From: Halobacterium noricense
GTDB lineage: Archaea; Halobacteriota; Halobacteria; Halobacteriales; Halobacteriaceae
Assembly (NCBI RefSeq): GCF_021233435.1
Contig: NZ_CP089468.1
Span: 2,170,001-2,234,000, forward strand
Direction of reading: 5' to 3'
Length of the DNA stretch: 64,000 nt
In this document: positions 19,887 to 22,651 of the stretch, piece by piece
Layout: every line of letters starts with the position of its first letter
Position numbering within the stretch: position 1 is the stretch's first letter
The notes under the pieces: generated by a model
Databases searched by the model: none
What the model was told of the DNA's origin: nothing
Seen by the model: the letters and a program-made list of their open reading frames with translations, nothing else
Made by a program: the position numbers and the translations under genes

Positions 19887-19961
19887 GGGTTGGTGGTCTA
19901 GTCAGGCTATGACACCTCCTTGACATGGAGGAGGTCGGCGGTTCAAATCCGCCCCAACCCA
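19887..19961 (+). tRNA. tRNA-Val(GAC)
   Basis: 75-nt cloverleaf: acceptor GGGTTGG/CCAACCC, anticodon stem CCTCC/GGAGG with loop TTGACAT (anticodon GAC), T-arm GGCGGTTCAAATCCGCC, discriminator A. CCA is not encoded. Its 3' end is the left attachment site of the integrated element. A TATA-like CTATAC lies about 40 nt upstream. Confidence 0.96.
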
Positions 19962-19963
19962 CT
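19934..19963 (+). repeat. attL: 30-bp direct repeat at the tRNA-Val 3' end
   Basis: The 30 bp starting GTCGGCGG and ending CAACCCACT match 22413-22442 exactly. This copy is within the intact tRNA gene (T-arm to acceptor plus 2 bp), as expected for integration by a tRNA-targeting tyrosine recombinase. Confidence 0.9.
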
Positions 19964-20808
19964 ACACTCCCTCCGGTCGTGTTAACCGCACGACGGCGGG
20001 AACTTTTCCACAACTTTCGGCGCTGAGAACGAGGTATATCGCTCTCAATTCATTCCGCTTCGCAACGCCCCACTACGATGTCCGGTGATTAGGACCTAAT
20101 TTACAGAATAGCCCTGTTCGGTTGTAAATCTATGGGAGATCCATAACGACGAGAAGGCGCTAGCCGATAGTAGCCCAGTTAGAACAATAATCAATCAGGG
20201 GCGGCGTAGAATATGTGTAAGTCACTCAGAAAATTTTGGAGTTTCAGTAGGGTTTCCGGACTGCCGCAATTTTATGATTGGGCGATTATTAGCGTATTAC
20301 TAGTGTATATATCCAAAAGGATGCCACCAGCCGGATGGTTGCATATCTGAAAAATTGATATGCTTTGAGGGCGGTGTGAGCGGACTTTTTTCAAAAATAT
20401 GCAGCAAACCCCTTTTGTCCTATTAAATCTTCTTGAGGAGTCTATAAGAGAGGTTAAAATCGATTTTGGTACCATAACAGTCGTCCCATTCGACAAGAAG
20501 GGGCGCTCCCGACGTCCCTTTGAATGACTGTATAGGATAGATCTTATGGGATAGACCTTTTAGGATGTCTCAAACTCCGTTTCAATACTGCGGTCACTTC
20601 TCGTCGTTAAGGAGTGCTGTAACCAAGTAATTAAACTTCGTTTCAGTAAGAGTTACAATCTAAATGGGGTACTACTGAGGACAATAGTATGTATACAATA
20701 TATGCTTTGGTAAGAGTTAACACACAGATTAGATAGTTTGAGAAGACAGAATTAAACTATATACAGATATAACTGACTGAATGTAAAAACTGCTGAGCAC
20801 GGAGTATT
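19964..20808. other. AT-rich noncoding left arm of the element
   Basis: No convincing gene. It contains a perfect inverted repeat GCATATC-N9-GATATGC (20341-20363), direct repeats GTAAGAGTTA (about 20644 and 20711), GGATAGAYCTT (about 20537 and 20551) and CGTTTCARTA (about 20578 and 20639). These short repeats in an AT-rich tract could be replication or regulatory sites. Confidence 0.5.
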
Positions 20809-21267
20809 CTACTGTAGAACATCAAGGCGCTCCTCGTACTCCTCCTTAGAGATCTCTCCCTCCGCATATTGTTGGCGAAGTGTTTCAATAGCCGAGTTGT
20901 CTTTTCCGTTTTCCGCCACATGGTTTGTTTGGTTGTTCCGTAATCGGTTAATTTCCTCCCGTAATTCCTTAAACTCCTCATTATGCAGGAAGTTGAATCC
21001 GACTGTGTTTTCGTCATCAAACTGTTCAAAGAATCCGTCTCCACTTTCTTCATGCCCGCTTTCACCGAACTTTATGTGTCCGCCGGAAAAATAAGTGGCC
21101 TCCTCAAGGTTAATCCCTGAAATTTCGTTTAGCGGAATAGTTTTAGATGGTGGTTTATGGAAGGGGATGTATTGGCTCAAGAACCATTCATTTGTTATTT
21201 TAATTCGGTCTTTGTATAGTGTAACCTGAGCCCCCGCGCCTTTTGCAAACTGAATCTCTTCACTCAT
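20809..21267 (-). CDS. PH-like (DUF4429-type) protein with C-terminal SHOCT domain
   Basis: 152 residues. Residues 1-110 look like a PH-type beta barrel (VTLYKDRIKITNEWF, SKTIPLNEISGINLEEATYF, GGHIKFG). Residues about 128-152 are a SHOCT helix pair (IETLRQQYAEGEISKEEYEE). Such proteins recur on mobile elements and may bind membranes or form oligomers; their role is unknown. The G+C content is much lower than the host genes. The promoter has an AT-rich box (21283-21299) and the palindrome at 21308-21322. It follows the integrase in the same orientation, possibly co-transcribed. Confidence 0.75.
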   Translation of the reverse strand: MSEEIQFAKGAGAQVTLYKDRIKITNEWFLSQYIPFHKPPSKTIPLNEISGINLEEATYFSGGHIKFGESGHEESGDGFFEQFDDENTVGFNFLHNEEFKELREEINRLRNNQTNHVAENGKDNSAIETLRQQYAEGEISKEEYEERLDVLQ

Positions 21268-21307
21268 TTGTAATTAAACTGGTCTAGTATAATATATTTA
21301 AATTTGG

Positions 21308-21322
21308 TGGTGTTATACACCA
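21308..21322. promoter_or_regulatory. Palindrome TGGTGTTATACACCA, possible element operator
   Basis: Perfect 6-bp arms (TGGTGT / ACACCA) around TAT, in the 75-bp gap between integrase stop and the SHOCT gene, about 10 bp upstream of the AT-rich TATA-like tract. It could be a repressor site or the stem of a weak terminator. Confidence 0.4.
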
Positions 21323-21342
21323 ATCATTACTACCTAAGGTGC

Positions 21343-22353
21343 CTACACGTTCTCAAGATATTCTCGTCGCACCTCCGCTTTCTCCTCTTCTGTACGGGAG
21401 TCATAGTGCTGTTCCAGCACTTTCCGACTTACATTCATTCGCTCAGAAACCACATCTTTGGGGACGTCTGAGTTTAGGTGTTCAGTTATCGCACTCCGCC
21501 GGATCGGATGGGGACTAACAGAAGAGGGGCATTCATAGGATTTCTTAACGCGTTTGCGGGCACTACAGTCCGCTAATTCTTTTTCGTGAGGACATTCACC
21601 CGTATACTGACAAGGCTCCGTTAAGTGTTCCGTGTAAAGCCGGAGTGTTTGTGTAGTTGCCCGCCCTTGCCGAGTCGGAAATAGGGGCTTCCTGTCGTAC
21701 TCGTCTGTCTTATCCAAGCGATTGTGTTTGATATAGTCGGAAAGAGCGCCCTTCAGTCCATCCTGAGAAACGTAGACTGCGCGCTCTCCCTCTTCTCCAT
21801 TCTTCAACGGTGTACCTTCTTCGGGGCGGTGGCGGACGTGTAGAAGATGTTTGTCGGGCTTCCAGTCATCGACGTCTAATGCACGAATAGACCCAATTCG
21901 CATTCCGGAATGATACAGTAGGTAGAAGAGAACGTGATTCCGTGAGGCGTAGTCAAACTGCTGGTAGTATTCTAAGATAGCATTAACTCGTTCCGGGGCG
22001 ATTGTAGCGTCTCGCACGGGGTTTTCCGGTCGTGGTATATCGAGTTTGTCCGCCAGTCCATCTTCTACAAGTTCCCGTTGTTCACACCACCGGAGCAAAG
22101 CCCGGATTGACATTAGGTTGTTATACAGGGTTTGCTCGTTAATTTCAAAATTCTCCCTCCTCCATGTCTTATACTGGTTTACAACGTACCCGTTCAGATC
22201 CCCGATATCCTCAATCTCAATTTCTTCAGTCCATTCAACAAACGAGCGGAGGTGGTACTTCTGGTTGACAAGGGTACTTTCCCGAACCTCGTGTTTTCGT
22301 TCGTTCTGGAATTGGTCAATAACTGTCTGCGGCGATTCGGTGAATTTCGTCAT
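21343..22353 (-). CDS. Tyrosine recombinase / integrase
   Basis: 336 residues. N-terminal SAM-like core-binding domain (residues about 7-100), then the catalytic domain with R152 (HSGMRIGSIRALD), H282-x-x-R285 (SPHPIRRSA) and the nucleophile Y317 (VLEQHYDSRTEEE). Between residues 248 and 275 four cysteines (C248, C254, C263, C275) form a probable zinc-binding insertion, known in haloarchaeal integrases. The ATG at 22353 is chosen; upstream in-frame sequence runs into the att repeat. It catalyses integration at tRNA-Val. Confidence 0.93.
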   Translation of the reverse strand: MTKFTESPQTVIDQFQNERKHEVRESTLVNQKYHLRSFVEWTEEIEIEDIGDLNGYVVNQYKTWRRENFEINEQTLYNNLMSIRALLRWCEQRELVEDGLADKLDIPRPENPVRDATIAPERVNAILEYYQQFDYASRNHVLFYLLYHSGMRIGSIRALDVDDWKPDKHLLHVRHRPEEGTPLKNGEEGERAVYVSQDGLKGALSDYIKHNRLDKTDEYDRKPLFPTRQGRATTQTLRLYTEHLTEPCQYTGECPHEKELADCSARKRVKKSYECPSSVSPHPIRRSAITEHLNSDVPKDVVSERMNVSRKVLEQHYDSRTEEEKAEVRREYLENV

Positions 22354-22412
22354 GGTTGGGTTTGATTGAGCCCGAACCACCGGCATCGATGGACTGCCTG
22401 TGTTGTGGAGGA

Positions 22413-22442
22413 GTCGGCGGTTCAAATCCGCCCCAACCCACT
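22413..22442 (+). repeat. attR: second copy of the 30-bp tRNA-Val repeat
   Basis: Identical to 19934-19963. The sequence just left (TGTGGAGGA) resembles but does not match the tRNA anticodon arm, so this is a tRNA fragment, not a second gene. The integrase start is 60 bp away, the usual recombinase-next-to-att arrangement. Confidence 0.9.
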
Positions 22443-22458
22443 TCTCAGCGAACTAAAC

Positions 22459-22583
22459 CGGCCAGCGACGGCTCTGTCGCTGGCCGTGTGCCGATGTAAG
22501 TGGCGTTGGCGGATTTGAACCACGGAAGTCGCGCACGGCGAACGCAGTGAGCGAGCACGTCTTCCGGAGGTCCACAATCCGCC
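22459..22583. repeat. Hairpins and degenerate tRNA-Val 3'-end copies right of attR
   Basis: An 11-bp stem at 22459-22486 (CGGCCAGCGAC / GTCGCTGGCCG) is followed by two inverted, imperfect copies of the tRNA-Val T-arm/acceptor: GTTGGCGGATTTGAACC (22505-22521, minus-oriented) and AATCCGCCCCAATTC (22576-22590). Their arms GGCGGATT / AATCCGCC and CGGAAG / CTTCCG pair. They look like scars of earlier integration at the same tRNA. Confidence 0.5.
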
Positions 22584-22651
22584 CCAATTCGCTCTTGCCC
22601 CTCAATTCACGCCGACGAGCTACAGAAGATTTTCGAGGAGACCTGCCTTGA

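Follow-up and report, generated by a model that had tools for sequence, protein, structure and literature searches.

The window analysed here, a stretch of 64,000 nucleotides from Halobacterium noricense, contains a tRNA-Val(GAC) gene that is the target of an integration and is intact after it. The last 29 bases of this tRNA, together with one more base, recur as a direct repeat (30/30 matches), with the two copies lying 2,479 bp apart (Table 1). GC content is 0.40-0.51 between the repeats, compared with mostly 0.61-0.74 outside, and two convincing genes are found inside, an integrase gene and a gene for a SHOCT protein, whereas no convincing gene occupies the ~845 bp that separate the SHOCT gene from the tRNA. 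Replication, relaxase, conjugation and structural genes could not be found among the recognisable ORFs of the 2,479-bp element, and pleolipovirus spike, membrane protein, NTPase and replication genes are absent, the integrase and SHOCT ORFs being the only ones recognised. An earlier reading of the DNA from its letters and ORFs (the sequence-only reading) had described an AT-rich tRNA-Val element bounded by an exact 30-bp duplication of the tRNA 3′ end, with only an integrase, one SHOCT cargo gene and about 850 bp of noncoding DNA, and without replication or structural genes; this description is confirmed.

Table 1. Features of the tRNA-Val element; positions are numbered from the first nucleotide of the window.
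Feature	Position	Strand	Basis
tRNA-Val(GAC), target	19887..19962	+	ARAGORN; in 12 other species of the genus also beside trpD
tRNA-side attachment repeat, 30 bp	19934..19963	+	Perfect direct repeat
Chassis left end (conserved; putative attP arm)	19964..20057		81% match to G156; further pairs alike
GACGAGAAGG motif, copy 1	20148..20157	+	Interior motif count
GACGAGAAGG motif, copy 2 (1 mismatch)	20492..20501	+	Interior motif count
GACGAGAAGG motif, copy 3 (1 mismatch)	20596..20605	-	Interior motif count
SHOCT cargo gene, 152 aa	20809..21267	-	Pfam; ORF length versus shuffles; distant homologues
SNJ2-type tyrosine integrase, 336 aa	21343..22353	-	Pfam, NCBIfam, PHROGs; catalytic residues and Cys4; dN/dS
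Distal attachment repeat, 30 bp	22413..22442	+	Perfect repeat; 59 bp upstream of the integrase start

The tRNA-Val gene is present with identical sequence in 13/13 genomes of the genus that were searched. The comparison with empty sites, proposed for sister strains in the sequence-only reading, was made across species of the genus. In the 12 other species, the trpD left flank is kept and the tRNA-Val follows without any element DNA, and at four loci (L016, L023, L025 and L026) the tRNA-Val is directly continuous with DNA matching the right flank of the window element. Since so many species carry the tRNA-Val without this element, several of them running straight into the right flank, the arrangement is not a chance repeat but an insertion. 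To the right of the distal repeat (22443-22590), a stem-loop is followed by a palindromic unit, the arms of which (GGCGGATTTGAACC...GGTTCACAATCCGCCCCAA) look like the tRNA-Val 3′ end copied in inverted and in direct orientation. Some version of this unit lies downstream of tRNA-Val in most species of the genus, with several in tandem at L023, and it could be what previous integrations left behind, or a repeat derived from a tRNA.

The integrase gene is open from its ATG to its stop, and its frame has no stop further upstream as far as a TTG that lies within the distal repeat. The protein matches Phage_integrase (PF00589) at 2.9e-10 in Pfam, with further support from NCBIfam and PHROGs, and contains R152, K184, H282, R285, H316 and Y317 as well as cysteines 248, 254, 263 and 275, including all of the residues read earlier as those of a tyrosine recombinase with a Cys4 insertion (R152, H282/R285 and Y317). 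The catalytic residues and Cys4 are also conserved in the SNJ2 and HHPV4 integrases, to which the protein is 37.5-40% identical over 98% of the query (37.5% to SNJ2), and by these sequence characters it is a member of the SNJ2-type family. According to the open literature, integrases of this type are widespread and restricted to Halobacteria. Neither the integrase, the integrase-pair alignment nor the SHOCT protein found a relative in IMG/VR, and a scan of the genome contigs with the integrase returned one distant locus. Compared with a relative that is 73% identical (G156, see below), dN is 0.17 while dS is saturated (at least 1.67) and 60% of third positions differ, which indicates that the integrase has remained functional since the divergence of the two and is under purifying selection. 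By analogy with ICEKp1/ICEclc (PMC13023037), an att-dependent integrase promoter was also considered.

Related loci were sampled as 20-kb regions around integrases of the family, most of them at or above about 40% identity, in which tRNA-end repeats bracketing the integrase were sought. Among 128 haloarchaeal integrase loci, the window included, 47 could be delimited by such repeats, and all of these have one layout, with cargo beside the tRNA, the integrase antiparallel to the tRNA and the integrase start close to the distal repeat (56-201 bp away in 37/37 delimited elements listed under 6.5 kb). Three further matches have another layout and repeats of just 14-18 bp. The 47 elements span 1,745-10,431 bp with a median of 3,141 bp, those larger than about 10 kb being under-counted because the surveyed regions were 20 kb, and 27 of them, distributed over 25 genomes and five host families, are smaller than 4 kb. 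The window element ranks 13th in size, and the smallest, L162 (1,745 bp), belongs to the same genus; with 12 smaller relatives, the suggestion that it would be one of the smallest archaeal integrative elements does not stand. The window element is ordinary within its class, and the interesting finding is the class itself, small, with fixed ends and exchanged cargo. The catalytic set and the four cysteines are invariant and no stops occur in 47/47 delimited relatives, a count to be read with a search threshold that favours full-length frames and under-samples frameshifted integrases. The family integrases L072 and L100 have tRNA-end repeats spaced by about 3.1-3.3 kb, which looks as though two elements had been stacked in a single tRNA gene.

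The genome G156, from a different family of the same order, contains the closest relative of the window element at the same trpD/tRNA-Val(GAC) site, where 2,958 bp separate 32-bp repeats. The two elements are 81% identical at the left end (element positions 3-124, att repeat included) and 71% identical over a stretch that starts inside the integrase gene and reaches the distal repeat, whereas their interiors are mostly without significant match and their cargo ORFs differ. Since this nearest relative, located at an identical site, has unrelated cargo, the SHOCT gene is no constant component of the element. In nearly all further close pairs, a left end of ~90-190 bp and the part from about the integrase stop to the distal repeat are kept and the interior is mostly or wholly replaced; L075 and L103 match in the integrase block alone, and some larger pairs have an interior segment in common. 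Two pairs with integrase blocks 90% identical illustrate the replacement: L110 has a 244-aa protein where L102 has two other proteins, and L106 has a 163-aa membrane protein where L157 has a 467-aa lipoprotein-like protein. In the integrase tree, tRNA isotype changes seven times, the minimum for eight classes, compared with a mean of 22.8 after shuffling, and sister pairs join different host families. This indicates that, across the genomes compared, the integrase lineage goes with its tRNA target while the elements cross host families.

Short motifs were found in the interiors and at the left ends. The interior of the window element holds three copies of GACGAGAAGG at up to one mismatch against 0.06 expected, and the G156 element, with an interior that is otherwise unrelated, has two to three similar sites there against 0.06-0.07 expected (10-mer, one mismatch). 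A longer GACGAGAAGG consensus occurs nowhere else in the genome at up to two mismatches and is not a host motif; such sites may serve the integrase as arm sites, act in regulation or mark cargo junctions. A single left-end sequence common to all elements was sought and could not be found, and just short motifs are enriched in the left ends of the 47 elements. These are an inverted T-arm, GATTTGAA, in 9/47 left ends compared with 0.1 in shuffles, about 65-115 bp and mostly 73-114 bp after the tRNA end, which may be part of attP, and a GACAGCG-like motif in 22/47 compared with 10.2.

The cargo ORF of the window element is longer than the longest ORF of the cargo zone in all 100 shuffles. Its C-terminal SHOCT domain (PF09851) scores 31.4 bits against a Pfam cut-off of 27, whereas the PH-like DUF4429 (PF14472) in the N-terminal part reaches 19.4 bits against a cut-off of 25, so that of the DUF4429-like/SHOCT gene described in the sequence-only reading the SHOCT half is secure and the DUF4429 half is sub-threshold. 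A single-sequence AlphaFold model reached a pLDDT of 50, too low for the fold to bear on the DUF4429 assignment, and PADLOC gave no defence match for this protein. Distant homologues share 31-43% identity. The SHOCT protein was also considered as a constant partner of the integrase, an idea that was rejected: its homologues in G281, G376, G268 and a Halalkalicoccus plasmid sit in other settings, with no SNJ2-type family integrase near the three chromosomal ones (G281, G376 and G268). A constant pairing of integrase and SHOCT gene is contradicted both by these settings and by the different cargo of the nearest relative at the same site. The genome encodes eight SHOCT domains above the cut-off, two on contig C1 and six on contig C2, and both of those on C1 are inside mini-elements, namely the window element and a second one, L060 (C1 of G000, start about 6849; 3,395 bp), which sits in an intron-containing tRNA-Trp and carries a zinc-ribbon-like/bPH (bPH_3)/SHOCT protein. 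On contig C2, two pairs of SHOCT domains lie in a seemingly duplicated segment, at about 51.5-52.7 kb and 205.5-206.8 kb.

Across the class, cargo types include SHOCT proteins, a His1-like capsid protein, a GmrSD nuclease, a flavin reductase and membrane proteins. SHOCT cargo could be found in three elements below 4 kb, the window element, L060 and L076, the last at 25.3 bits, just below the cut-off. A His1-type capsid protein lies beside the integrase in L125 (tRNA-Arg, 3,141 bp; E 1.1e-22) and L172 (tRNA-Tyr, 2,623 bp; E 3e-32), the two proteins being 57% identical over 67 aa, and these elements are possible satellites or remnants of a spindle-shaped virus. L109 (tRNA-Arg, 5,132 bp) has, next to its integrase, a resolvase-like ORF and a GmrSD-type nuclease that could be a mobile defence gene; among the elements below 4 kb, L084 carries a pyridine nucleotide-disulphide oxidoreductase, L115 an HNH protein, L086 a protein with a weak NERD match, and the larger element L078 a Prim-Pol gene. 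PADLOC returned at most weak HNH-type matches, for one cargo, among the others. Homologous membrane proteins are shared by L083 and L106, with a visibly similar protein in L148, and the remaining cargos belong to no recognised family, many having membrane segments predicted by simple hydropathy. The longest cargo ORF exceeds all shuffles in at least 20 of the 27 small elements, and L162 and L171 (1,774 bp) contain no ORF beyond the integrase longer than in shuffled sequence.

Given these observations, the 2,479-bp stretch is probably a minimal integrative element that is still intact, one of a class in which one or two genes are shuttled. Its SNJ2-type integrase would recognise the tRNA-Val 3′ end and recombine a circular form into the tRNA gene, a reaction that would restore the tRNA and place another copy of its end at the far side. 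The chassis would comprise ~1.3 kb, made up of a left end of ~95 bp, the integrase gene directed at the tRNA, the distal att and a short leader between these two, and the DNA between the left end and the integrase stop would be exchangeable cargo, in the window element the SHOCT protein. As expected from the tyrosine-recombinase mechanism and published work on IntSNJ2 (PMC8371274), recombination of attL with attR would excise a 2,479-bp circle that could re-integrate at attB. Because the element has no replication or transfer genes, its spread would have to use the machinery of others, cell fusion or uptake, and the circle might travel when cells fuse or take up DNA, in vesicles, or as a passenger of plasmids and viruses. 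The absence of homologues of SNJ2 gp2/gp3 (Orf2/Orf3) from the 47 elements (tblastn, E 0.01) counts against the intact-element reading; Orf2 and Orf3 raise the efficiency of SNJ2 integration and are not essential (PMC8371274). A more far-reaching proposal is tentative and somewhat doubtful, namely that such haloarchaeal nano-elements are a widespread autonomous gene shuttle, the ~1.3-kb chassis of which swaps single genes between left end and integrase stop, possibly at element-specific repeats like GACGAGAAGG, and carries these genes from species to species, inserting in the same tRNA gene.

The locus might instead be a decayed remnant of a pleolipovirus provirus or an integrative plasmid, of which the integrase, the att sites and one gene are left. 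The integrase family is indeed that of betapleolipoviruses and haloarchaeal plasmids, sizes form a continuum of 1.7-10.4 kb with a Prim-Pol gene in some of the larger elements (L078), and two elements have kept the His1-like capsid gene. The sequence-only reading had taken longer relatives or a disrupted integrase as signs of such a remnant; same-family elements of up to 10.4 kb do exist, but small ones recur in five host families, and the integrase is open in the window and intact in all delimited relatives, under purifying selection and between perfect repeats. Moreover, cargo between close relatives is replaced and not merely deleted. From simple decay one would not expect intact integrases and swapped cargo in small elements of five host families, and this explanation is quite unlikely.

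It is also unlikely that the elements are selfish units of an integrase alone, comparable to an insertion sequence confined to tRNA genes, with accidental, functionless passenger DNA as cargo. L162 and L171 fit this description, but most of the small elements have a cargo ORF longer than in any shuffle, and both membrane-protein cargo (L083 and L106, and similarly L148) and SHOCT cargo (in three elements) recur. A virus satellite, the circle of which would be packaged by a pleolipovirus or spindle-shaped helper that the cargo helps or blocks, is very unlikely: the window element has no packaging signal or helper-derived gene, no relative of its integrase was found in IMG/VR and most cargos have no viral matches, even if the integrase is common to pleolipoviruses, L125 and L172 contain His1-type capsid proteins, and predicted membrane segments are frequent among cargo proteins.

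Tycheposons and other bacterial tRNA-targeting cargo islands also combine a tyrosine recombinase, a tRNA att and variable cargo, and are much larger than the window element. Integron gene cassettes offer an analogy in that single-gene cargo is moved by a tyrosine recombinase, whereas elements of the window type carry their own integrase and a tRNA-derived att, with no attC and no array platform. The betapleolipovirus SNJ2 resembles the window element in its tRNA-end target, in the same catalytic and Cys4 residues and in an integrase gene that is intact after integration (the classical type), but it is a 17-kb virus genome with Orf2 and Orf3, whereas the 2.5-kb element has neither, contains no replication or structural genes and has its distal att directly upstream of the integrase. 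Judged by its sequence, the window element is thus SNJ2-type by its integrase, without the SNJ2 accessory genes, and is not a pleolipovirus provirus. PYG1 of Pyrococcus abyssi is likewise an archaeal island with no identified replication module, and is reported to occur in circular form by means of its own integrase (PMC8371274); it differs in integrase group and host order according to the table of that review. In the open literature that was searched, which covers few of the subscription journals and not the central SNJ2 paper (NAR 2018), no description of a small class with swapped cargo could be found, and these tiny integrase elements, widespread as they are, appear to be undescribed.

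If active, such elements would be a very economical vehicle for gene exchange in haloarchaea, consisting of one enzyme, two ends and one gene, and would explain strain-specific single genes beside tRNA genes. They would also provide ready-made tRNA-specific integrases for building halophile tools, and would raise the testable question of how elements that lack genes for replication and transfer can persist and pass from one host family to another.
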